From Spirochaetota bacterium (lineage in GTDB: Bacteria; Spirochaetota; Spirochaetia; JABEVK01), in the NCBI GenBank assembly GCA_020049045.1, contig JAIFLN010000047.1, positions 1-54,772 on the forward strand: a DNA stretch of 54,772 nucleotides, read 5' to 3'. Both the position numbers and the translations under genes were made by a program. Shown here in pieces: positions 16,803 through 29,243 of this stretch (position 1 is its first letter; each line of letters opens with the position of its first letter). The notes beneath the pieces were generated by a model. It had not been told where the DNA came from. It did no database searches and saw only the letters and a program-made list of their open reading frames with translations.

Positions 16803-18599
16803 ATGCACCATCGTCCTTCCCTCGCGACCCCTCTTTTGAAGGGGAACCGGGCTTTGTATCTGCTTGCCCTGGCTGCTGCGGCCTTGGGAACGCTGTTTTC
16901 GTATCTGCCACCCCTGTTTCTCAGGTCCATTATCGATTCTGGCCTGGGAGGGGCACCCTGGACCCTTCCCGCTCCGCTGGCGTCGGTAGGGGCTTCTTTG
17001 GCCGGTCTTTTCACCGCTTCTGTCTTCGCCGCCGGGTTCAGTTTTGCTGCCAGCTTCGGCACCCAAAGATCTGCCGAAGGGATGGCGCGAGCCCTGCGGC
17101 AGAAACTGTTCGGTCATATCCAGCTGCTCCCCTTCGAAGAGTTGTCCAAAGCTCCTACTGGTGATTGGGTTCAGCGCTGCACCAGCGATGTCGACACCCT
17201 CAGGCGTTTAGCGGCCCTTCAGTTTCCGGAACTGGTCAATAATATCTTGCAGGCAGCGTGGGCACTCCCTATTTTATTTTCGATTCATTCGGAGCTGGCG
17301 CTCTTTGCCATTCCATTGTTGCCGGTGGTCCTCGGGTTTTCGCTGTACTTCTTTACCCAGGTCCAGAAAGCCTTCAAAGAAAGCGATGAATCAGAGGGCA
17401 GATTGTCGGGTGTTCTTCAAGAGAATGTGACCGGGGTACGGGTGGTGAAGGCCTTTGCCCGGCAGGAATATGAAATCGAGCGGTTCGGTAAAGAAAATGC
17501 CCACTATCGCAAGGTGACCCGCAAGCTCATCAATCTGTTTGCTTTTTACTGGGGCACGGTCAACTTTCTTTCCATGGTTCAAATGGGCCTCGTTCTGACG
17601 GCCGGGGTGGTCTTCGTTCAGCAGGGTAAGGCGACGGTGGGGACGGTGGTCATGTTTTTGACCATGACCGGAATGCTGGTCTGGCCCATCCGGCAGCTGG
17701 GCAGAGTCTTGACCGACTTGGGCAAGGCGAAGGTGAGTTGGGGCCGCATCCGGGAAATTCTTGATAAGCCCACCGAGGATCTGGGGGCCCCGCTGGTCCC
17801 TGCCTACCCGTGGAGAGGAAAGGTTGAGTTTCGAGGTGTCTCGGTGAACCGGGAGGGACGCAGTCTCCTTGCGAACTTGACGTTCACGTTGGAAGCAGGA
17901 ACCACGGCAGCGCTGTTGGGTCCAACCGGGAGCGGCAAGAGCACTCTGGTGCATCTGCTGGCCGGATTGCTCGACTATGAAGGAGAGATCTTGCTCGACG
18001 GAAGGGAACTGCGGTCCATCCCCAAAGGCGAGCTGCGCCAGCAGGTAGGGCTGGTTCTCCAAGAGCCTTATCTGTTCGCCAAGACCATCGGTGAGAACAT
18101 CGGACTTGCACACGGAGACGTCAGACCGGAAGAAATTGTTGCAGCGGCAAGAATTGCCCAGTTTCATGAAGGCATTGAGGGGTTCCCCCACGGGTATGAG
18201 ACTCTGCTGGGGGAACGGGGAGTGACCTTGTCTGGTGGCCAGCGTCAGAGGACAGCCATCAGCCAAATGCTGCTGCGACCCCGTCCGGTACTGGTTTTTG
18301 ACGATTCTCTGTCGGCGGTTGACAACCACACGGATGCCCAGATCCGGCGGTCGCTTCGCGACCGCTCAGAGAATGCCAAAAGGCATTCTCCAGAGCTGCT
18401 TGTAGGGACTGTTATTTTGATTTCGCATCGCCTGTCCACGCTCGCCCAGGCAGATGTCATTTTGGTCCTCGAGAAGGGACGGCTGGTACAACGGGGCAGC
18501 CACCGCGAACTGGTGGCCGTCGAAGGGCTCTACCGGCGCATGGCGGAACTGCAGAACGCCTTGAAGCGGGAATGGGCCACGGAAGGAGAGGAAATATAA
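16803..18599 (+). CDS. ABC exporter half-transporter A (degenerate-site subunit)
   Basis: A type IV ABC exporter half: an N-terminal six-helix membrane domain (about 1-310) and an ATP-binding domain with Walker A GPTGSGKST, signature LSGGQRQR, and Walker B VLVFDDSLSAVD. The catalytic Glu after Walker B is replaced by Asp (DDS), as in the degenerate subunit of heterodimeric exporters such as BmrC, LmrC and TM287. The partner gene overlaps its stop codon (TAATG). 598 residues is normal. A ribosome site (GGGAG) lies 9 bases before the ATG. The substrate is unknown; lipids, peptides or drugs are all possible. Confidence 0.92.
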   Translation: MHHRPSLATPLLKGNRALYLLALAAAALGTLFSYLPPLFLRSIIDSGLGGAPWTLPAPLASVGASLAGLFTASVFAAGFSFAASFGTQRSAEGMARALRQKLFGHIQLLPFEELSKAPTGDWVQRCTSDVDTLRRLAALQFPELVNNILQAAWALPILFSIHSELALFAIPLLPVVLGFSLYFFTQVQKAFKESDESEGRLSGVLQENVTGVRVVKAFARQEYEIERFGKENAHYRKVTRKLINLFAFYWGTVNFLSMVQMGLVLTAGVVFVQQGKATVGTVVMFLTMTGMLVWPIRQLGRVLTDLGKAKVSWGRIREILDKPTEDLGAPLVPAYPWRGKVEFRGVSVNREGRSLLANLTFTLEAGTTAALLGPTGSGKSTLVHLLAGLLDYEGEILLDGRELRSIPKGELRQQVGLVLQEPYLFAKTIGENIGLAHGDVRPEEIVAAARIAQFHEGIEGFPHGYETLLGERGVTLSGGQRQRTAISQMLLRPRPVLVFDDSLSAVDNHTDAQIRRSLRDRSENAKRHSPELLVGTVILISHRLSTLAQADVILVLEKGRLVQRGSHRELVAVEGLYRRMAELQNALKREWATEGEEI

Positions 18600-20404
18600 T
18601 GCGCTGGGAAGAAGAAGAGTTCCAAAAAAAATGGGATATGGGTCTGTGGCGGAGGCTCCTGAAATTCGCCAAGCCCTACACCTGGGATTTTGCAGTCCTA
18701 GCGTTGGTCATGCTCTGTGTCGGCTCTATCGACGCCGTGTTTCCACTGATGACAAAGATAGCCGTCGACCAGTTCATGACACCAGGGGTTGAGGTAGGGT
18801 TGGCAGGCTTTGCGCTCACCTACTTGGGAATTGCTGTCACTCAGGCCTTGTTGGTTTGGTTTCTCATCTGGCAGGCTGGACGGATTGAGCAGGGGCTGAT
18901 CCACGATTTAAGGCGGGCAGGGTTTGATCGTTTGCAGAAACTGTCGTTCTCCTATTTTGACCGCACTCCCGGGGGGTGGATTCTCACCCGGCTGACCAGC
19001 GACGCCAACCGGCTGGGAGAAACCATCAGCTGGGGTCTGGTCGATATGATCTGGGGTGCCAGCCTGATGATCGCCATCATCACGGCCATGTTGATTCTCG
19101 ACTGGCGGCTGGGACTGATCACGCTGTTGGTCGTCCCCCCCCTGGCCTGGGTCAGTGTGTATTTTCAGGGTAAAATGCTGGTCTGGTACCGTAAGGTCAA
19201 AAAACTGGGGTCTGAACTATCGGCTGCCTTCAGCGAAGGGATTCAGGGGGCCCGTTCCGCCAAGGTCTTGAGCCGCGAAGAAGGAAACAAGCAGGAGTTC
19301 CACTACAAGGCTGGACGCCTGAGAGACTCTGCCGTCCGATCGGCCTGGTTCAGTGCGCTGTATCTGCCCATGGTTCTCACCCTGGGAAGCCTAGGCACGG
19401 TGCTGGCCCTGGGTTTTGGTACCCCGATGGCGGTAGCCGGTACCCTCACAGTGGGAACTTTGGTGGCCTTTGCGGCCTACACTGTGCAGTTCTTTGAACC
19501 GGTGAGAGAACTGGCCCGCGTTTTGGGTGAACTTCAGCAGGCACAGACCAGCGCCGAACGGTTGCTCAGTCTGGTAGAGACCGAACCGGAAATTCTCGAT
19601 GCACCGGATTCTGAGGCGGCTTCGGCCGGCCACGAACGGGTATTGGGCCGGGTCACCTTCGACAGTGTCGGTTTTCGGTATGGTGAAGGTCCTTGGATTC
19701 TCCAAGATTTTTACCTCGAGGTGGCACCGGGCACCAGTGTGGCGTTGGTCGGCGAGACAGGGAGCGGCAAGAGCACCATTGTCAACCTGCTCTGCCGATT
19801 CTACGAGCCAACCCAGGGCAAGGTGCTCATCGATGGTGTCGATTATCGCCAGAGGACACAACACTGGCTGCAAAGCCGCTTGGGATACGTTTTGCAGACA
19901 CCACAACTCTTCCGAGGTTCCGTGCGGGACAATATCCGCTACGGAAAACTGCAGGCCACCGATGCGGAAGTTGAGCGTGCAGCGGACCTTGTTTCGGCCA
20001 TGCCATTTATTCTTGACCTGGAAAATGGATTTGACACGGACGTCGGAGAAAGTGGAAATCGTCTCTCTACTGGCCAGAAACAGCTGGTGAGCCTTGCCAG
20101 GGCTGTGCTGGCCGACCCTGCGCTGTTTATCCTCGACGAGGCGACGAGTTCAGTCGACACCGAAACGGAACGGTTGATTCAAGATGCTGTCGAGGTTGTG
20201 CTGAAGGGGAGAACCAGTTTTCTGATCGCCCACCGGTTGAGTACGGTCCGCCGGGCAGACAGAATTCTTCTGCTGGACAAGGGGCGAATTCTGGAAGACG
20301 GAAACCATGAAGCCCTGATGGCCCTGCGGGGGCGGTATTTCGAACTCTACACGGAGCAGTTTCTGGATGAAGAAGAAAAGCATCTGCTGGAGGCCGAAGC
20401 GTGA
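18599..20404 (+). CDS. ABC exporter half-transporter B (catalytic-site subunit)
   Basis: The start at 18599 overlaps the upstream stop and has a ribosome site (GGAAGGAGAGG). The 601-residue product has six membrane helices (about 20-320) and an ATPase domain with Walker A GETGSGKST and a canonical Walker B plus catalytic Glu (LFILDEATSSVD), but a deviant signature LSTGQKQ. In a heterodimer, that deviant signature pairs with the partner's DDS site, giving one inactive and one active ATP site, as in BmrCD/TM287-288-type exporters. Co-translation with subunit A and the following GNAT gene suggests one functional unit. Confidence 0.93.
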   Translation: MRWEEEEFQKKWDMGLWRRLLKFAKPYTWDFAVLALVMLCVGSIDAVFPLMTKIAVDQFMTPGVEVGLAGFALTYLGIAVTQALLVWFLIWQAGRIEQGLIHDLRRAGFDRLQKLSFSYFDRTPGGWILTRLTSDANRLGETISWGLVDMIWGASLMIAIITAMLILDWRLGLITLLVVPPLAWVSVYFQGKMLVWYRKVKKLGSELSAAFSEGIQGARSAKVLSREEGNKQEFHYKAGRLRDSAVRSAWFSALYLPMVLTLGSLGTVLALGFGTPMAVAGTLTVGTLVAFAAYTVQFFEPVRELARVLGELQQAQTSAERLLSLVETEPEILDAPDSEAASAGHERVLGRVTFDSVGFRYGEGPWILQDFYLEVAPGTSVALVGETGSGKSTIVNLLCRFYEPTQGKVLIDGVDYRQRTQHWLQSRLGYVLQTPQLFRGSVRDNIRYGKLQATDAEVERAADLVSAMPFILDLENGFDTDVGESGNRLSTGQKQLVSLARAVLADPALFILDEATSSVDTETERLIQDAVEVVLKGRTSFLIAHRLSTVRRADRILLLDKGRILEDGNHEALMALRGRYFELYTEQFLDEEEKHLLEAEA

Positions 20405-21234: not shown

Positions 21235-22659
21235 TTAGGGGAGATACGTGACTACGGCATTGCCTTCGATACGGACCAGCACTTCGACCCCTCGTTCGGT
21301 CAAGGCAAAGTCAACGACATCCCAGCGATCGAAACCAACGCTCAGAGAAAGGTGAGGAGCCACCGTCAGGGTGGATAGGCTGGAACTTGCCTGTTCCTTC
21401 AGTTGGTTCAGTTCAGGCCCCAGATCCCACACAAAGTGTTTCTCCCATTCTTTCACCCAAGAGCCTGCGAGCAGCCAACCGGCAGTTTTGGTCAGGTAGT
21501 CCTTGGTCTTTAGTTCCAAGGCTGTTTCTGTCAGCCTCAGGGTACGGGTCAGCGGGTCCCAAACCGGGCGCGCCCCTAACCAGAGAACGGCGTCGACCTT
21601 GGTGCCCGGCCAAGGGGGTGTCAACTGCCCTTCAACACGAAACAGAACTCGATCTCCGTCGGTGAAAATCTCCAGCCCTTGAACGTTCAACCGGCCGCCT
21701 GACCCCACATTCCACTCGCCACCCGATAAAACCTTGTCTCTGATCGTTTGTGAGAGCTGGTTCCACGGTAGTGCAACGGGAAGATTGAGCAGAAGGCGGG
21801 AAGTTCTCGCAACAGAACTTTGAACGGCCGGGAGAACAAGCTTTGCTACCGAAGGCCGGGGGCCGAGAGTCAGCGTGGGACGGGTTGTCAGTGTCAGATC
21901 AACGGAAAGATAATCGGAGGAGGTTGTTAATGGACCCAAGGCGACACTTTGTGGACCTAGGTTCAACCAAAGATTTCCCTCAGCGGAAAGTGACCGGGGT
22001 TCTTGAAGATCCCGCCAGGCTGCCTCTGCTGTCGGCTTCAGATCGAGGGTGGACAACCGTTTTGCCAGCTCTTGATTGAGTTTGTCCAGCGAAGGTTTCA
22101 AGGCTTCCCGAACCGGCCCGACGATGCTGATGGTCTCTCCGAAGAAATTACCGTCCCAGGCTATACCGATAGGGACCTCTGCCCGGCGCACCTCCAGATA
22201 CATCTGTGTTTTGGCAGCCAGCTTCCAATCGGTGCCGAGGGTGAGCTCGGCTTCTACTCCGGCATCGGCTTCCACTTCGGAAACAATGTCTCCGGGTAAA
22301 GTATCCCACCGTGCCGAAAGATCACCGGTCAGACTGGTTGTCACTCGAATTCGGGAGCCTTCAAACCCCAGTTTCAAAGGACTGCGTTTCAAATCATACG
22401 TCCACCAGTAGTGCCAGTCGTGTTTCATAAACCAGGCCGTGAGCGTTCGTTTTCCCGAACCCTCTCCCTTGATCGTCAGGGGAACAGCACCTTCTGTCCA
22501 GCTTTTCACCTGTGCTTGTGGTACCCGCAACGGAACGACCAGCGTTGATTCAGGAGTATCCCAGGTATGCGGGGTTGCCGGTCGCCGGATCGGTGCCGGT
22601 GCCTGCAATGCCGTACAGGAAACCATAAGGAGAGCCAGACCCAGAAGAGGCCTAATCAT
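21235..22659 (-). CDS. DUF4403-type lipoprotein
   Basis: The first residues form a lipoprotein signal (MIRPLLGLALLMVSC, lipid-modified Cys at 15). The rest of the 474-residue protein is beta-rich with repeated strand pairs such as LTTRPTLTLGPRP and LSLSVGFDRWDVVDFAL, which I associate with DUF4403, a family with a TULIP/SMP-like or BPI-like elongated fold. A role in lipid transfer is speculative. It overlaps the upstream FAD-subunit gene by 8 bases and is the last gene of the NusG-headed operon. The family assignment is by pattern. Confidence 0.72.
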   Translation of the reverse strand: MIRPLLGLALLMVSCTALQAPAPIRRPATPHTWDTPESTLVVPLRVPQAQVKSWTEGAVPLTIKGEGSGKRTLTAWFMKHDWHYWWTYDLKRSPLKLGFEGSRIRVTTSLTGDLSARWDTLPGDIVSEVEADAGVEAELTLGTDWKLAAKTQMYLEVRRAEVPIGIAWDGNFFGETISIVGPVREALKPSLDKLNQELAKRLSTLDLKPTAEAAWRDLQEPRSLSAEGNLWLNLGPQSVALGPLTTSSDYLSVDLTLTTRPTLTLGPRPSVAKLVLPAVQSSVARTSRLLLNLPVALPWNQLSQTIRDKVLSGGEWNVGSGGRLNVQGLEIFTDGDRVLFRVEGQLTPPWPGTKVDAVLWLGARPVWDPLTRTLRLTETALELKTKDYLTKTAGWLLAGSWVKEWEKHFVWDLGPELNQLKEQASSSLSTLTVAPHLSLSVGFDRWDVVDFALTERGVEVLVRIEGNAVVTYLP

Positions 22660-23515
22660 CGTCCAGTCTCGTCAGAATCCAGCGCATCATATGAAGAACC
22701 CTATCGCGTTGGAAAATGCTGGCAGGAACGGGAAGCTGGTTCAAAGCTTCGTCAACGCGCTCCTGCGCCTGGCTTCTCACCCGGTGCGGCAGTGGGAGCC
22801 GCTGTCCAGCCAGTTCAGCTTCCAGACTCTGGATGCGGATCAAGCCGCTGTGCGGCAGATGAAAGGACAGCCTCAGGGCTTCCAGCTGACCGTTTTTAGG
22901 GCGTGCCAGGCCCATCATGGCTAAACGTTCGTCCCAGGGGGTCCGAATGTTTCCAATTTTTTGGTAGAACGTCTGGGGCCAGTCTTCCTGTGGAATTCGA
23001 ACCCGTGTCAGAATTTCTCCTGGTGCCAGCGCTACCCGCCCTTCTTCGGCGACCTGTTGAGTGGTCAGCCATCGGCTGCCCCGCAAGTTGCGGATTTCAA
23101 ATTGCGCCCCCAGCAGGTGCAAGGCAGGGAACAGATCACCCAAAATCCCTTTCTGGCAAACGTTACCGGCCAAGGTAGCCAGATTGCGGAGGGCCGAGGT
23201 GCCAATCACCCGGGCGGCTTCCTTCAATATGGAAGGAACCCATGGGCCTCCCACCGACAGAAGCTGGTTGAGCGAGAGAGTCCCTCCCAGATCCAGAGAA
23301 CGTTCACCATAGGTGATTCTTCTGAGGTCCTCGGCCAGATGAAGAGACAAGGTCACGGGAGGCAGCATGATTGAGGTGGTAAGGTGTTCCGTATGCCAGG
23401 CCGTTCCTCCGGCAAACAACTGCGCCTGCGGGTTGGGAACAAAGAGGGCAAGAGCTTCGGCAAGACTGCGGGGGCTGTAAACCAGCGGAGGAGGGCCTTC
23501 AACGGCGACCGACAC
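22652..23515 (-). CDS. Molybdenum-hydroxylase-like complex, FAD subunit
   Basis: The start is GTG at 23515, with ribosome site AAGGAGG six bases upstream. Longer in-frame starts would run deep into the preceding gene. The 287-residue product matches the FAD-binding subunit of xanthine dehydrogenase/CO dehydrogenase families: YSPRSLAEALAL at the N-terminus, the first FAD loop LFAGGTAW, the second loop ATLAGNVCQKGILGDLFPAL, and a CO-dehydrogenase flavoprotein C-terminal domain. Flavin-binding motifs look intact. It overlaps the 2Fe-2S gene by 17 bases. Confidence 0.88.
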   Translation of the reverse strand: MSVAVEGPPPLVYSPRSLAEALALFVPNPQAQLFAGGTAWHTEHLTTSIMLPPVTLSLHLAEDLRRITYGERSLDLGGTLSLNQLLSVGGPWVPSILKEAARVIGTSALRNLATLAGNVCQKGILGDLFPALHLLGAQFEIRNLRGSRWLTTQQVAEEGRVALAPGEILTRVRIPQEDWPQTFYQKIGNIRTPWDERLAMMGLARPKNGQLEALRLSFHLPHSGLIRIQSLEAELAGQRLPLPHRVRSQAQERVDEALNQLPVPASIFQRDRVLHMMRWILTRLDDD

Positions 23516-23981
23516 GGACAGCCTCCTTTCGTTCCAGCCAACGGGCGGCCCCGCGCTCAAGAACCGGTCGGCTACCACAGCGGCAGGGAATTTCTCCGAT
23601 GACCATGCGGCATTCCTCTTTTCCCGCCTGAGGGAAAAGCTCGAGATAACTGAACAGGTGGAAAATCTGGACGTCGGTGCATTCCGCACACTCAACCAAA
23701 CCTTCCTCATCGAGGATCAGACGAAATTGACGGTATTCATCAGTTTGGCTGAATCCTTCCGGGGTAACGACTTCTCTTTGCTTAACCTGGAAAAAAGGAA
23801 CAAGGCACGAGGGAACTTCTTTTGAATCGAGCACCACATGACAACGGCCGCAGGTGCCCTTCCGGCAGTTGGTTTTCTCTTGGAAAACGCCGGCTTCCCT
23901 CTGGAGAACGGTGAAGAGACTTTCGCGGGTATCCCCGTCGAGGGTGACGTCGTCACCGTTCAGAATCAAAGGAAGCTTCAT
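23499..23981 (-). CDS. Molybdenum-hydroxylase-like complex, [2Fe-2S] subunit
   Basis: The 160-residue product has a plant-ferredoxin-type cluster (C39, C44, C47, C59 in CRKGTCGRC and downstream). A second cluster domain follows with C98, C101, C133 and C135 (CAEC and CRC), the pattern of the small subunit of xanthine dehydrogenase-type enzymes. All eight cysteine ligands are present, so electron transfer from the large subunit to FAD is plausible. The 29-base overlap with the large-subunit gene and 17-base overlap with the FAD gene show tight coupling. Confidence 0.88.
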   Translation of the reverse strand: MKLPLILNGDDVTLDGDTRESLFTVLQREAGVFQEKTNCRKGTCGRCHVVLDSKEVPSCLVPFFQVKQREVVTPEGFSQTDEYRQFRLILDEEGLVECAECTDVQIFHLFSYLELFPQAGKEECRMVIGEIPCRCGSRPVLERGAARWLERKEAVRVGRR

Positions 23982-26091
23982 GGTACCTCAAGGCCTCATC
24001 GAGCATTTTTCGTGATACGGGAATGGATTTCAAGTCGGGGCCTACCGCCTGACGGATGGCTGAAAGGAGGGCTGGAGCCACAAGGTTGGCACCCAATGAC
24101 CCCAATCCCCGGGGGGCTGTTTCCTTGGGTCCTTCAAAAAACTGAATGTCGAGGGGAGGTAACTCACGGGGACCCGGCAACCGGTAACGTAGAAAACTCT
24201 GATGGCTGATGGTCAGGTTTTCCCACTGGATGCTTTCCGTGATGGCCCAGCCGACAGCCATCTGCACACCCTCGGTCACGGCGTTCCGAGCCGAGGCCTC
24301 ATCGATGCGAGGCCCCGCGTCAATCAGCAGGCTGATTTTGCGGATGCGTATCTCGGCCAGCAAAGGGATCAATTCGACTTCGGCAACGGCAGCCCCCCAG
24401 CTGAAGGTTAGAAAGGGCTTGCCCGAAAAATCATCGCTGTCCCATGCCGGACCCTTGTTTCTCCGGTAGACCTTTCTCACGGTGATCGGAAGGGGCTGGC
24501 GGAACCGTTTCTGAGCTATCCCTTCACAGGTTTGAAGCAGCAGCCTGGGTACAATTTCAAAAGCACGGGAAGAAATAGAAGGACCTCCTGCAGGATGGTC
24601 ACCGGTAAAAACAGGGCAGATCCGAACATCGGTCACGGGTATTTGGAGCACTGCCGCCGCACTTTCTTTCCAAAGCTGCACCAGCCGGTTGTTCGCGGTA
24701 ACAATGGGAATATAGAGGGAGAGTCTGCCGTCTTGTTCAAGGCGGGCTTCCACGTTGACGGGGTTGGTACCCCCCGCCAAAAAGCCGTTTCCCTGAAAAC
24801 CTGCTGCCAGGCCAATCCCTCGAAGCGGCAACGCTTCTTCTTGAAACCTTTCCAGACGTTCCTGCATTAGTTCGTAGGCGGCGTATTTGCGGCTGAAATC
24901 CGAAGAACGGGCCAATTGGGGAATCAGCATTTTCAGTGGACTGTCTGCACGCAACGGAACCCCTGAGAACGAGCTGCATTCCTTGGTCAGTGTCTGCTCT
25001 GTCCTCCATTGTGCCGGATCCTGCCCCAGAGCACGGCACAGATCGTGAACATGACTTTCGATGGCAAACAGTCCCAAACCTTCCCCAAGCCCCCCCACCG
25101 GTCCCCGGGGCGGCGTGTGGGAGGCCTCGGCGTGGGCATTGACCACAAAGTGGCCCAGTTTGTAAGGAGCGAGGATACCAACAACAGTCCGGTCCAGCAT
25201 TTCATCATCGAGAACCCCGTAGGCACCGGTCTGCACAACCACGTCCGCCATCAGGCTGAGAATTCGACCATCTGGTGCCAAGGTGGTTCTCAAGAGGGTG
25301 CGAGCTTCGGGACGTTTGGGGGAGAAAAGGAATTCTTCCTCCTTGGTCAGTTTCATGGAGACGGGTTTTCCAGAGGCCTGAGACAGCAATGCCGCATGAA
25401 CTGCCAAAAGGGAAGGGTACCAGACTTGGCTGTTGGCGGTTCCGGACGAAACAGTCCCCAAAACCTTCACTTCGTTAGGATCGCGATCTAGCGCTCTTGC
25501 CACACTGCCGACCACATGCGCGGGCCATTGGGTCTTTAAACGCACGCCCACGACCTGAGGGGTCACTTGAACCATGATTTCCACAGGATCAAGGTGGCCA
25601 TGATCCTGGGGTCCCGAGGAGTAAACCCCTTCGACTTCCATGGTCCCCGCCACCCCCATCAAAGCTTGGGTTTTATCACCCCCAATGACCTTCTTGCGTT
25701 TCAGATGAGGGCTGTCCTCGACGAACTCATCGAGACTGAGGTTCTTGGTGACGAACCTCACCTGACTGGCAAACCAGCGGACTTCATCCTCATCGGGTCC
25801 TGCCACCAGGGCGAGGGGCTCCCCGACATACTGTACGACCTCGTCTCCCAGCACGGGAAAACGACTTCGCAAAACCTGGAACATGGGATTGCCGGGAATG
25901 TCGTGGGGTAGAACCATGGTCCAGCCTTCCGGGAGCGGTGGATGAACCACTCCGACGATTCTGGCATGGGGAACCTCAGAACGGATTGTGACACCAGCCA
26001 GCAACAGCGGCAATGAGGGGTGAAACAGTTCTTTTTCGGGGGAAAAGTGCGGGTCTTCGGCGGCACTCTTTTTCTTGGCCCTCGCCATCAA
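23953..26091 (-). CDS. Divergent molybdopterin-binding-like large subunit (xanthine dehydrogenase family) with degraded active-site motifs
   Basis: Overall layout follows the CoxL/XdhA family: VVQYVGEPLALVAGPD (about 85-100) in the a/b hammerhead domain, SSGPQDHGHLDP (158-169), a TQWP element (187-190), GKPVSMKLTKEEEFL, and RGPVGGLGEGLGLFAIE (329-345). The cofactor-binding glycine loop GGGFGGK is replaced by VSSGTANSQVW (214-224) and the GQG-x2-T loop by TANNRLVQ (465-472). The catalytic Glu of the final GxGE motif is Ser in RGLGSLG (661-667). At 712 residues it is slightly short. The Fe-S and FAD partners look intact, so a complex may form, but normal Mo-cofactor catalysis is doubtful. Confidence 0.8.
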   Translation of the reverse strand: MMARAKKKSAAEDPHFSPEKELFHPSLPLLLAGVTIRSEVPHARIVGVVHPPLPEGWTMVLPHDIPGNPMFQVLRSRFPVLGDEVVQYVGEPLALVAGPDEDEVRWFASQVRFVTKNLSLDEFVEDSPHLKRKKVIGGDKTQALMGVAGTMEVEGVYSSGPQDHGHLDPVEIMVQVTPQVVGVRLKTQWPAHVVGSVARALDRDPNEVKVLGTVSSGTANSQVWYPSLLAVHAALLSQASGKPVSMKLTKEEEFLFSPKRPEARTLLRTTLAPDGRILSLMADVVVQTGAYGVLDDEMLDRTVVGILAPYKLGHFVVNAHAEASHTPPRGPVGGLGEGLGLFAIESHVHDLCRALGQDPAQWRTEQTLTKECSSFSGVPLRADSPLKMLIPQLARSSDFSRKYAAYELMQERLERFQEEALPLRGIGLAAGFQGNGFLAGGTNPVNVEARLEQDGRLSLYIPIVTANNRLVQLWKESAAAVLQIPVTDVRICPVFTGDHPAGGPSISSRAFEIVPRLLLQTCEGIAQKRFRQPLPITVRKVYRRNKGPAWDSDDFSGKPFLTFSWGAAVAEVELIPLLAEIRIRKISLLIDAGPRIDEASARNAVTEGVQMAVGWAITESIQWENLTISHQSFLRYRLPGPRELPPLDIQFFEGPKETAPRGLGSLGANLVAPALLSAIRQAVGPDLKSIPVSRKMLDEALRYHEASFDSER

Positions 26092-27248
26092 GGCCTACCT
26101 AGCAGGGCGCGAAAACGGCGGCATACTTCATCCACCTGATCAATGGTCAGTGCCGGGTACAGCGGCAGAGAAAGCGTCCGGGAATAACGGGTTTCTGCCA
26201 TTGGAAAATCGGCGTTCGAAAGGTTGTACCGTTCCTTCCAGTAGGGCATGCGGTGCAAAGGAATGTAGTGGACCGATATCCCAACACCTGCGGCACTCAG
26301 TTCACTGGCGAACGTGTTGCGATCGCTCTTTGAAGGGAGCAGAACGCTGAAAAGGTGCCAGGCGTGGTCATCAATCCAAGCCGGTAGTACCAAATCCTGC
26401 AACCCTGCCAAACGGTCAAGATAACGCTGTACCAACGCTTGCCGATCACGCCAGAACCCCTGTGCCCTGGTCAGTTGAACCCGACCGATCGCTGAAGCGA
26501 TATCCGTCATATTGTATTTGTAGCCCGGAGCCACCACCGCATATTCCCAGCTGGCCGCCTTGCTGGTATACCGGGCAAAGGCATCCCGGTCGATACCATG
26601 AAGCCGCATCACCTTCATCCGCCGGGCAAGGGCTTCGCTCTTTGTGACAATCATACCGCCTTCGCCGGTGGTCATATTCTTGTTGGCATAGAACGAATAC
26701 ACCCCTATGTCGCCCAGGGCACCGTAATACCCCCGCGGTCCAGCCGTAGGAAACACGTGGGCTGCGTCTTCGACAATTTTAAAGCCAAACCTCTCACGCA
26801 AGGCGGAAAGCCTGTCCCAGTCAACAGGTTCACCAGCCAGGTGAACCGGCAGAACGACTTTGACCTTCCTGGAAGACAAAACCTCTTCCAGGCGGTCCAA
26901 GTCCAGGTTGGGACTGTTCGGCTGGCAATCGATAAAGACCAGATCGGCACCTAAATACCGCACTACCTCGGCGGTGGCTGTGAAAGTGTAGTCGGGCACT
27001 GCACAGAGGTCTCCGGGACCGACACCCAAGGCTTCGAGGGCCAAATGCAGTCCTGCGGTGGCGCTGTTGACCGCCAAGGCAAAGGGCATATTGACGTAAG
27101 CACCGAATTCAGACTCAAAGGCTTGGGTGACCTTTCCCGTGGTCAGCCAGCCGGAACGAAGCACTTCCAGGACAGCTTGTTCCTCTGCCTCACCCAAAAC
27201 CGGCCGTGAAAAAGGGATGAATTCGACAGGATCAATAGGCTGGTTCAT
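26088..27248 (-). CDS. DegT/DnrJ/EryC1/StrS-family sugar aminotransferase
   Basis: PLP enzyme that transfers an amino group to a keto-sugar nucleotide. The start at 27248 gives the usual opening (IPFSRPVLGEAEEQAVLEVL); upstream in-frame codons lie within the dehydratase gene. The 386-residue product has the PLP lysine in YANKNMTTGEGG, the phosphate-binding region FALAVNSATAGLHLAL and EDAAHVFPT. It overlaps the upstream dehydratase by 17 bases and the downstream large subunit by 4. With the dehydratase it would make a 4-amino-4,6-dideoxy sugar nucleotide. Confidence 0.92.
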   Translation of the reverse strand: MNQPIDPVEFIPFSRPVLGEAEEQAVLEVLRSGWLTTGKVTQAFESEFGAYVNMPFALAVNSATAGLHLALEALGVGPGDLCAVPDYTFTATAEVVRYLGADLVFIDCQPNSPNLDLDRLEEVLSSRKVKVVLPVHLAGEPVDWDRLSALRERFGFKIVEDAAHVFPTAGPRGYYGALGDIGVYSFYANKNMTTGEGGMIVTKSEALARRMKVMRLHGIDRDAFARYTSKAASWEYAVVAPGYKYNMTDIASAIGRVQLTRAQGFWRDRQALVQRYLDRLAGLQDLVLPAWIDDHAWHLFSVLLPSKSDRNTFASELSAAGVGISVHYIPLHRMPYWKERYNLSNADFPMAETRYSRTLSLPLYPALTIDQVDEVCRRFRALLGRP

Positions 27249-28704
27249 CTTTGTCCTCGAGAGTGGGGCACCAGGCGCGCAAGACTGTACGCAGGTGCTG
27301 GCGGTTGCGGTAGCGGGTGGGTTGCTCTGTATCAAAGAAACACACAGGCCACAGCAGCTTCAAGAATGGTCGTATGTCGCGTGCCGGGCTCGGCCTAACC
27401 ACGCGGTTGAGCCGCGTATACGCCGTAGGAATCGGGTCTTCATCGGGAGCCCAAAGGCGCTCCTCGAGTTTTTCTCCCAAACGCAACCCAATGTATTGGA
27501 AAGCAATGTCTGTGTGGGGTTCCTTGCCATGAAAGCGGATAATCTGACTGGCCAGGTCTTCGATAAGGATGGGCTCGCCCATATCGAGCAGGTATAACTG
27601 TCCTCCGGCACCAACGCCCCCTGCTTGAAGCACAAGGGTCACGGCTTCGGGAATTGTCATGAAAAAGCGGCTCATCCTTTTGTCGGTGATGGTCACCGGT
27701 CCACCTGCAAGAATTTGCTCACGGAACAGAGGGATGATGCTCCCCCTTGAGCCCAAGACATTGCCAAAGCGGACGACAAGGAATCTGGCAGTCCCCGCCC
27801 GGGCGTTGGCAGCCAGAACAAGGTCTTCTCCGATGCGTTTGGTGGCTCCGTAAATGGAATTGGGTTCCACCGCCTTGTCGGTGCTGATGAAAACAAACCG
27901 GCTGACACCCGCCGCCAGGGCTGCTTCCACCAAATGATGTGTGCCGAAGACATTGTTGGTGACTGCCTCGACCGGGTTGGTTTCGGCCAGCGGCACGTGT
28001 TTGTGTGCGGCGGTGTGGAAGATCACATCAAGCTTCATACGAGATAACAGAAACTCCAGGTGATTGGCGTCTTTCAAATCTCCGATGACGGGAACAATGG
28101 TGGAACCTTCCCCGACACCGCCTGCCTGAAGCTGACGCAATTCCTTATCGATCTGATAGATGCTGTTTTCACCATGGCCATACAGATACAGCCGTTCCGC
28201 TCCACCGGAAAGAAGTTGCCGGGCAAGTTCGCTCCCGATGCTTCCTCCTGCTCCCGTGATCAGCACTCGCTTTCCCCGTAAGTACCTGAGGCTCTCCTTG
28301 AGGCTGATCTGCACAGGGTTGCGGCCCAACAGGTCCTGAGGGTCGATTTCACGGGTCAAAACAAGGTGAGCCTCACCGTCAACAATTTGACTGATGGCGG
28401 GAAGAATTTGAATGCGTGGAATACCGGCTTCTACCAGGGTCTTCCAAATAGCCCTCAGCTGCTTTTTTGTCGCACTGGGTATGGCGATAAAGGCCTCATC
28501 GATCCCTGCTGCGCTTTGGGCCTGCAAGGCAATGGGACCCTGAACCGGCAAACCTTCGATGATGGTTCCGATCTTGGTCGGGTCATCATCCCAGAACGCC
28601 GCCAGCTTTCGGTCGGGCATTTTTTGCAGAATCTCTCGGGCCAGAGCCATTCCGGCAAAGCCTGCCCCGAGTATGACTGTTGTCCGGATTTTTGGTTGAA
28701 TCAT
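27232..28704 (-). CDS. Soluble NDP-sugar 4,6-dehydratase (CapD/WbpM-like, no membrane domain)
   Basis: The 490-residue protein has an N-terminal Rossmann regulatory domain (GAGFAG at 13-18, WDDDPTKIG) and a C-terminal short-chain dehydrogenase domain with NAD motif GAGGSIG (151-157). The family usually has four N-terminal membrane helices, which are absent here. The catalytic stretch is STDKA (274-278) then YGATK (285-289): a classic Tyr-x3-Lys, whereas WbpM/CapD proteins commonly have Met in place of the Tyr. It starts with a 4-base overlap with the NusG paralogue and feeds the DegT aminotransferase. Confidence 0.88.
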   Translation of the reverse strand: MIQPKIRTTVILGAGFAGMALAREILQKMPDRKLAAFWDDDPTKIGTIIEGLPVQGPIALQAQSAAGIDEAFIAIPSATKKQLRAIWKTLVEAGIPRIQILPAISQIVDGEAHLVLTREIDPQDLLGRNPVQISLKESLRYLRGKRVLITGAGGSIGSELARQLLSGGAERLYLYGHGENSIYQIDKELRQLQAGGVGEGSTIVPVIGDLKDANHLEFLLSRMKLDVIFHTAAHKHVPLAETNPVEAVTNNVFGTHHLVEAALAAGVSRFVFISTDKAVEPNSIYGATKRIGEDLVLAANARAGTARFLVVRFGNVLGSRGSIIPLFREQILAGGPVTITDKRMSRFFMTIPEAVTLVLQAGGVGAGGQLYLLDMGEPILIEDLASQIIRFHGKEPHTDIAFQYIGLRLGEKLEERLWAPDEDPIPTAYTRLNRVVRPSPARDIRPFLKLLWPVCFFDTEQPTRYRNRQHLRTVLRAWCPTLEDKDEPAY

Positions 28705-29243
28705 GGTGCAACCTCGGCTGCCGGCAAGGAAATTTCGGCCATCAGCTCGAAACCAAGGGTCATCGTGAACGTTCCATGATCAAAATCCAGCCGGATTTTG
28801 GCCCGCCGTTTGCGTTTGTCCACATGGATGATGTTCCCCTCCATTCCCTCCATGGGACCGGAAAAAACACGGATGCGCTGGTTTTCATCAAACATGACCT
28901 TGCTGGTGGGAGTGACTTCGCCAAACTTCAGGAAATGCCTCAGAAGTTCAAGATCCTTACCCTTCACTTCGGAAATTTCATCCCCGGATTTTACAAAGTG
29001 GTGAAACTTCGGAAGGTGGCGGATCCGGCTGTAAAGGTCGGAATCCAGCGGCTCTTCAGAGCGAAGAAAAACGTAACCGGGGAACAGCGGCACCTCTACC
29101 ATGGAACGTTTCCCTTTCTTGAGATGCTCCATTTTGCGCCGCGGAAAGACAACGGCCACACCTTCATCGGCAATCAGGCGTCCGCTGAGTTTCTGGAAGA
29201 CCTCTTCTTGACGTGGGGCAACCCGGATCACGTAATAGGACAC
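28701..29243 (-). CDS. Specialised NusG paralogue (RfaH/LoaP-like antiterminator)
   Basis: The 180-residue protein has a NusG N-terminal domain (YYVIRVAPRQEEVFQKL, then VEVPLFPGYVFLRSE) and a C-terminal KOW domain (RIRVFSGPMEGMEGNIIHVD). The PLFPGYVF element is the RNA-polymerase-contacting part of NusG. It heads a seven-gene operon with sugar genes, like RfaH, UpxY and LoaP paralogues that promote processive transcription of surface polysaccharide operons. The start is GTG with no ribosome site; an in-frame stop lies shortly upstream. A general nusG is not expected in this setting, so I call it a paralogue by context. Confidence 0.85.
   Translation of the reverse strand: MSYYVIRVAPRQEEVFQKLSGRLIADEGVAVVFPRRKMEHLKKGKRSMVEVPLFPGYVFLRSEEPLDSDLYSRIRHLPKFHHFVKSGDEISEVKGKDLELLRHFLKFGEVTPTSKVMFDENQRIRVFSGPMEGMEGNIIHVDKRKRRAKIRLDFDHGTFTMTLGFELMAEISLPAAEVAP
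29208..29236 (+). promoter_or_regulatory. Weak candidate promoter for the secreted hypothetical gene
   Basis: TTGACG, a 17-base spacer and CGTAAT lie inside the 5' end of the NusG paralogue on the opposite strand. This would place the transcription start near 29243 and a leader of about 55 bases ahead of the gene at 29297. Confidence 0.35.

Follow-up and report, generated by a model that had tools for sequence, protein, structure and literature searches.

A molybdenum hydroxylase-like complex predicted to lack its cofactor site is conserved in a sugar-enzyme cassette of the Spirochaetia

Results

The window analyzed here is a whole contig of 54,772 nucleotides (JAIFLN010000047.1, assembly GCA_020049045.1) from a member of the Spirochaetota. 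On its minus strand lies a cassette in which two predicted sugar enzymes, CapD and SpsC, are followed by the three subunits of a molybdenum hydroxylase-like complex. The first gene (28701..29243) encodes a LoaP-type antiterminator, a NusG paralogue (NCBIfam NF033641 antiterm_LoaP, 134.7 bits against a cut-off of 125), and according to the open reading frame (ORF) coordinates its stop shares 4 nucleotides with the start of capD. A related gene of about 180 amino acids (cluster c10) sits before CapD in several other loci.

The next ORF (27232..28704) was assigned to the UDP-N-acetylglucosamine (UDP-GlcNAc) 4,6-dehydratases of the CapD/SpsM/PglF type (Pfam Polysacc_synt_2, 1e-104). It is syntenic in most loci and stands closest to PglF/WlaL, with WlaL (5bjy, 2.5e-67) as its nearest PDB match. 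It is followed by a pyridoxal phosphate (PLP)-dependent sugar aminotransferase of the SpsC/PseC type (26088..27248; NCBIfam PseC, 1.5e-101, under the cut-off of that model), in which translation probably begins at Met30 of the 27335 ORF. Its PDB match was the UDP-4-amino-4-deoxy-L-arabinose (ArnB-type) aminotransferase 8sng (5e-80), and the PLP lysine, Lys219, was retained in 18 of 19 sequences and invariant in a second set of 11. Sequence homology thus predicts the UDP-GlcNAc 4,6-dehydratase and aminotransferase pair of an Sps/Leg-type pathway.

The large subunit (23953..26091, 712 aa) was identified by Pfam (MoCoBD_1, 2e-29; MoCoBD_2, 4e-25), PDB sequence search, alignment and an AlphaFold2 model. 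The monomer model (predicted local distance difference test score 83; predicted template modelling score 0.84) matched xanthine dehydrogenase (XDH) B of R. capsulatus (1jro) best among PDB structures, with a template modelling (TM) score of 0.85. Pfam, sequence search and model therefore agree on a predicted molybdenum hydroxylase fold. The residues expected to hold the molybdenum cofactor (Moco) have nevertheless been replaced. Where the GGGFGGK loop would lie, residues 213-226 (25414..25455) now read TVSSGTANSQVWYP, with VSSGTANSQVW aligned to the motif, and in place of the GQG loop residues 463-474 (24670..24705) read IVTANNRLVQLW, with TANNRLVQ aligned, while the catalytic glutamate is Ser665 (24097..24099). 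The loss of these three elements, proposed in a preliminary description of the window, was confirmed by alignment to canonical spirochaetal relatives.

The [2Fe-2S] subunit (23499..23981, 160 aa; Pfam Fer2, 5e-6, and Fer2_2, 0.003) carries two sets of four cysteines (C39/C44/C47/C59 and C98/C101/C133/C135), and the subunit binding flavin adenine dinucleotide (FAD) (22652..23545; Pfam FAD_binding_5, 2e-27) retains both flavin loops, AGGT and TLAGN, as the same description had stated. The ORF of the FAD subunit opens at 23710, but homology begins only near 23.5 kb, and the true start is probably a GTG there, since the first 60 or so codons overlap the [2Fe-2S] gene and have no homology.

A search of the phylum showed that proteins of this kind are widespread, and a scan of genome contigs gave 175 relatives, 80 of which were kept; wherever the organism was titled these came from spirochaetes, save one titled just 'bacterium'. 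The order CapD-SpsC-Large-[2Fe-2S]-FAD was found in 64 of 101 loci, and most of the remaining orders were partial, consistent with contig or fetch ends. Real variants occurred in G177, where CapD-SpsC is divergent from the trimer, and in G063, where it does not adjoin the trimer, and G207 (a 1.4-Mb genome; L208, 6886-9539) has the CapD-SpsC pair without the trimer. These data show that the cassette is conserved across the class Spirochaetia and does not reflect a fault in a single genome. When 46 large subunits from cassettes and 20 canonical ones were placed in one tree, the two groups were separated by one branch (support 98 in the Shimodaira-Hasegawa-like approximate likelihood ratio test), several of the cassette rows being long branches. 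For the two f53 loci that were read, the profile matches were rejected as members of the family, both being canonical XDHs with full Mo loops. G096 and G224 were dropped as cassette-negative exceptions because their loci hold a very degenerate cassette.

The preliminary description had pointed to a similar capD-spsC neighbourhood in T. pallidum, in which TP0077-TP0081 are annotated as capD, spsC and 'quinoline 2-oxidoreductase'. This fits G056 (1,139,633 bp; cassette at about 84-91 kb), which we take to be T. pallidum from its matching gene order. In this genome (locus L047) the gene order is identical to that of the window and the Mo loops are likewise lost, but the [2Fe-2S] subunit, unlike that of the window, is without the N-terminal cluster ligands.

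Across the family, the motif GG[GA]FGGK was present in none of 115 cassette large subunits, compared with 17 of 17 canonical ones. Arg350, presumably the equivalent of bovine Arg880, was found in 0% of the 115, the GQG columns were retained in 3-13% and the second GQxxG in 0-2%; several structural Gly, Glu and Ala positions are still 97-100% conserved. Since GGGFGGK and GQG were lost at identical positions of the alignment in virtually all cassette homologues, the losses are far beyond chance. The loss of the catalytic glutamate holds for the window and for its family, where the site is S, N or Y (N or Y in the two nearest relatives), but not as a trait of the whole clade, in which 62% have E and 17% have D at this position (79% together). 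The predicted loss of Moco contacts is thus shared by all of the cassette clade, of which the window is one of the more degenerate members. No characterised homologue with the same pocket residues turned up.

Genes for Moco synthesis were searched with hidden Markov models (HMMs) in 37 cassette genomes, of which 32 were assigned by reading the locus and five from the large-subunit score alone, and MoaC and MoeA were both undetected in 23 of them. The pattern was the same for MoaA and MoaE in a 40-genome set holding many cassette genomes, and complete genomes such as G056, G130, G194 and G006 gave no match to MoaA, MoaC, MoaE or MoeA. Strict co-occurrence with molybdopterin genes, which the preliminary description had named as one of two observations that would count against its proposal, was therefore not seen, and that proposal, of a complex without the usual Mo cofactor site, gained support both from these genomes and from the absence of GG[GA]FGGK in all 115 proteins. 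The genome of the window has two canonical enzymes on another contig, alongside moaA, moaC, moaE and moeA, and makes Moco for those two enzymes.

Canonical XDH large subunits with intact Mo loops were also found in G347 (L138) and G018 (L028), in which MoaC and MoeA were undetected, as were MoaA and MoaE in G018. Absence of MoaC and MoeA by HMM is for this reason not proof that Moco is missing, and the loop losses are the stronger argument for Mo-independence.

The [2Fe-2S] subunit had all eight cysteines in 88 of 97 loci, and several exceptions reflect contig ends or a shifted CC for CxC. The N-terminal set was lost in G056 and G399 (L148), which are sister branches, and both sets were lost in G130 (L038), while G096 and G224 (L205/L206), which belong to the family of the window, lack the N-terminal Fe-S loop. 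The tree implies at least three separate losses of the N-terminal cluster, and the operon remained each time. The intact electron chain, to which the preliminary description had given most weight, cannot carry that argument, as several lineages have lost one or both clusters and kept the operon; judging from the ligands, a complete chain is typical of the family and not universal.

Divergence was compared between the same three genomes. Large subunits were 26-33% identical in the cassette and 47-53% in canonical enzymes, [2Fe-2S] subunits 31-35% and 57-63%, respectively, and the partner enzymes 60-67% (CapD) and 50-51% (SpsC). The ratio of nonsynonymous to synonymous substitution rates (dN/dS) for the trimer was 0.06-0.20 in four close pairs, with dS near saturation in some. 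The trimer is therefore fast-diverging yet constrained, i.e. under purifying selection, and its reading frames are open in more than 100 genomes, including a reduced genome of 1.14 Mb.

Flagellin and a strong NeuB/PseI match were found in all 37 cassette genomes, and CTP_transf_3 in all 33 tested. The genome of the window also encodes a NeuB/SpsE synthase and a CTP-transferase (C18 and C25). The f5 (Borrelia-like) genomes sampled had flagellin but no NeuB, and no cassette was found in them; the f53 and f54 genomes sampled had no flagellin and again no cassette was found, with a strong CTP-transferase in G203 and a strong NeuB in G233 as exceptions in f53. A pseudaminic cluster around NeuB was not found, the annotated neighbours being housekeeping genes or genes without a Pfam match. 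In eleven f3 genomes (G056, G165, G381, G399, G070, G111, G116, G086, G182, G191 and G091) the open frame that holds the CTP-transferase domain is 840-909 codons long, a length that suggests a possible fusion with a further domain.

Downstream of the cassette, and outside its conserved part, are a DUF4403 protein on the same strand (21235-22659; Pfam, 5e-64), which follows directly, and paired half-genes of an ABC transporter (598 and 610 aa; 16803-20404), which are apparently unrelated to the cassette.

Discussion

The cassette combines parts of two known systems. It resembles R. capsulatus XDH, of the xanthine oxidase family, in the predicted fold of its large subunit (the TM score given above), in having two [2Fe-2S] clusters and an FAD subunit, and in the layout of a heterotrimer encoded by separate genes. 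It differs in the absence of GGGFGGK, Arg350, GQG and the second GQxxG (and, in the window, in the Ser for Glu), in its sugar-operon setting and in its host genomes, in most of which no Moco genes were detected. In B. subtilis, SpsM, SpsC, SpsE and SpsF are parts of the route to legionaminic acid, and spsM, spsC and spsE are needed for its synthesis (PMC7439481). The spirochaetes have an SpsM/CapD-type dehydratase and an SpsC aminotransferase in the cassette, with SpsE/NeuB and an SpsF-type CTP-transferase elsewhere in the genome; however, the six enzymes described for the B. subtilis pathway include no Mo-hydroxylase-like trimer (PMC7439481).

We infer that one copy of an XDH-like trimer lost molybdopterin binding in an ancestral member of the Spirochaetia and was locked into an operon with the 4,6-dehydratase CapD and the sugar aminotransferase SpsC, where it would act as a Moco-free accessory complex in a nucleotide-sugar route. 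Because flagellin, NeuB and CTP-transferase co-occur with the cassette, this route most likely supplies a nonulosonic acid of the legionaminic or pseudaminic type for flagellins. The fold and the three-subunit operon are kept everywhere and the Mo pocket is not, suggesting that throughout the family the trimer would serve the CapD-SpsC step as a structural or binding partner. FAD and the two [2Fe-2S] clusters, kept in most lineages, probably still function there in electron transfer or redox sensing, but this part is dispensable. That the trimer is such an accessory or scaffold complex, with a redox module still used in most lineages, has in our judgement about an even chance of being correct.

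Four observations weigh against this accessory role. The CapD-SpsC pair does not strictly require the trimer, as seen in G207, and among the genomes looked at NeuB lies near the cassette on one contig in G063 and G116 only. All eight cysteines are retained in 88 of 97 loci though the [2Fe-2S] subunits of different families are only about 31-35% identical, an argument that in most lineages the clusters have some role. Finally, the former Mo-loop position is occupied in 91 of 115 large subunits by a replacement motif, [DE]G[KR]xW, which, with the Glu or Asp found at the old base in 79% of the family, could be a new active site.

The last two points lead to an alternative which we regard as possible, though rather doubtful, namely that the trimer is a Mo-free enzyme in which FAD and two [2Fe-2S] clusters exchange electrons with a remodelled pocket ([DE]GKxWxP plus Glu/Asp). 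Its substrate would be a nucleotide-sugar or a nonulosonic-acid intermediate, and the window and a few other lineages would be secondarily degenerate. Besides the retained cysteines, the motif and the acidic base, the low dN/dS and residues in or near the remodelled loops that are invariant within a subclade (His164, Gln188, Trp189 and Trp224) are consistent with such an enzyme. Yet the motif is missing in 24 of 115 proteins, those of the window and its family included, the base is S, N or Y in that same family, and the operon was retained after each loss of the N-terminal cluster and after the loss of both in G130. The more specific proposal, that this would be an oxidoreductase fed by FAD and [2Fe-2S], with a new active site at the former place of the Mo cofactor, and making an unusual sugar of the flagellin glycan, is slightly more tentative again. 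An E1/E3-like radical sugar deoxygenation (ascarylose type) by SpsC and the trimer was rejected as a first choice; E1-type enzymes carry His at the position of the PLP lysine, which SpsC retains in 18 of 19 sequences.

The remaining alternatives are all unlikely. A Moco-free partner of the cassette could serve a target other than flagellin, e.g. a surface glycolipid, since CapD and SpsC are sugar enzymes of a generic kind and NeuB is mostly unlinked, but the nearly complete profile of flagellin, NeuB and CTP-transferase makes this improbable. Slightly less probable still is that molybdopterin, or a variant of it, is bound in the altered pocket and obtained by an undetected synthesis or salvage route; the genome of the window does make Moco, and G347 and G018 have canonical XDH without detectable MoaC and MoeA, but none of the conserved motifs that contact the pterin survives, all being lost at the same columns, and none of the four Moco genes was detected in complete genomes such as G056 and G130. 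A decaying, functionless relic, retained through operon position alone, would explain the rapid divergence, the variable pocket, the Fe-S ligand losses and the missing trimer of G207, but is very improbable given the dN/dS values in all four pairs and the open frames in more than 100 genomes, the 1.14-Mb one among them.

The loss of the Mo site is wider and older than the window alone could show, and annotations such as 'quinoline oxidoreductase' and 'xanthine dehydrogenase' are probably wrong about the chemistry of the complex. A complex derived from a molybdoenzyme appears to be kept under selection, without its molybdenum site, by a whole bacterial class. If the trimer were a Mo-free oxidoreductase with a new active site, it would represent a previously overlooked class of enzymes, conserved in spirochaetes that range from the treponemes of termite guts to T. 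pallidum. In T. denticola the flagellins bear a 450.2-Da glycan that is essential for filament assembly (PMC9481697), and the cassette may offer a handle on how spirochaetes synthesize this glycan. Its trimer would then also be an example of a redox complex that has outlived its catalytic metal.

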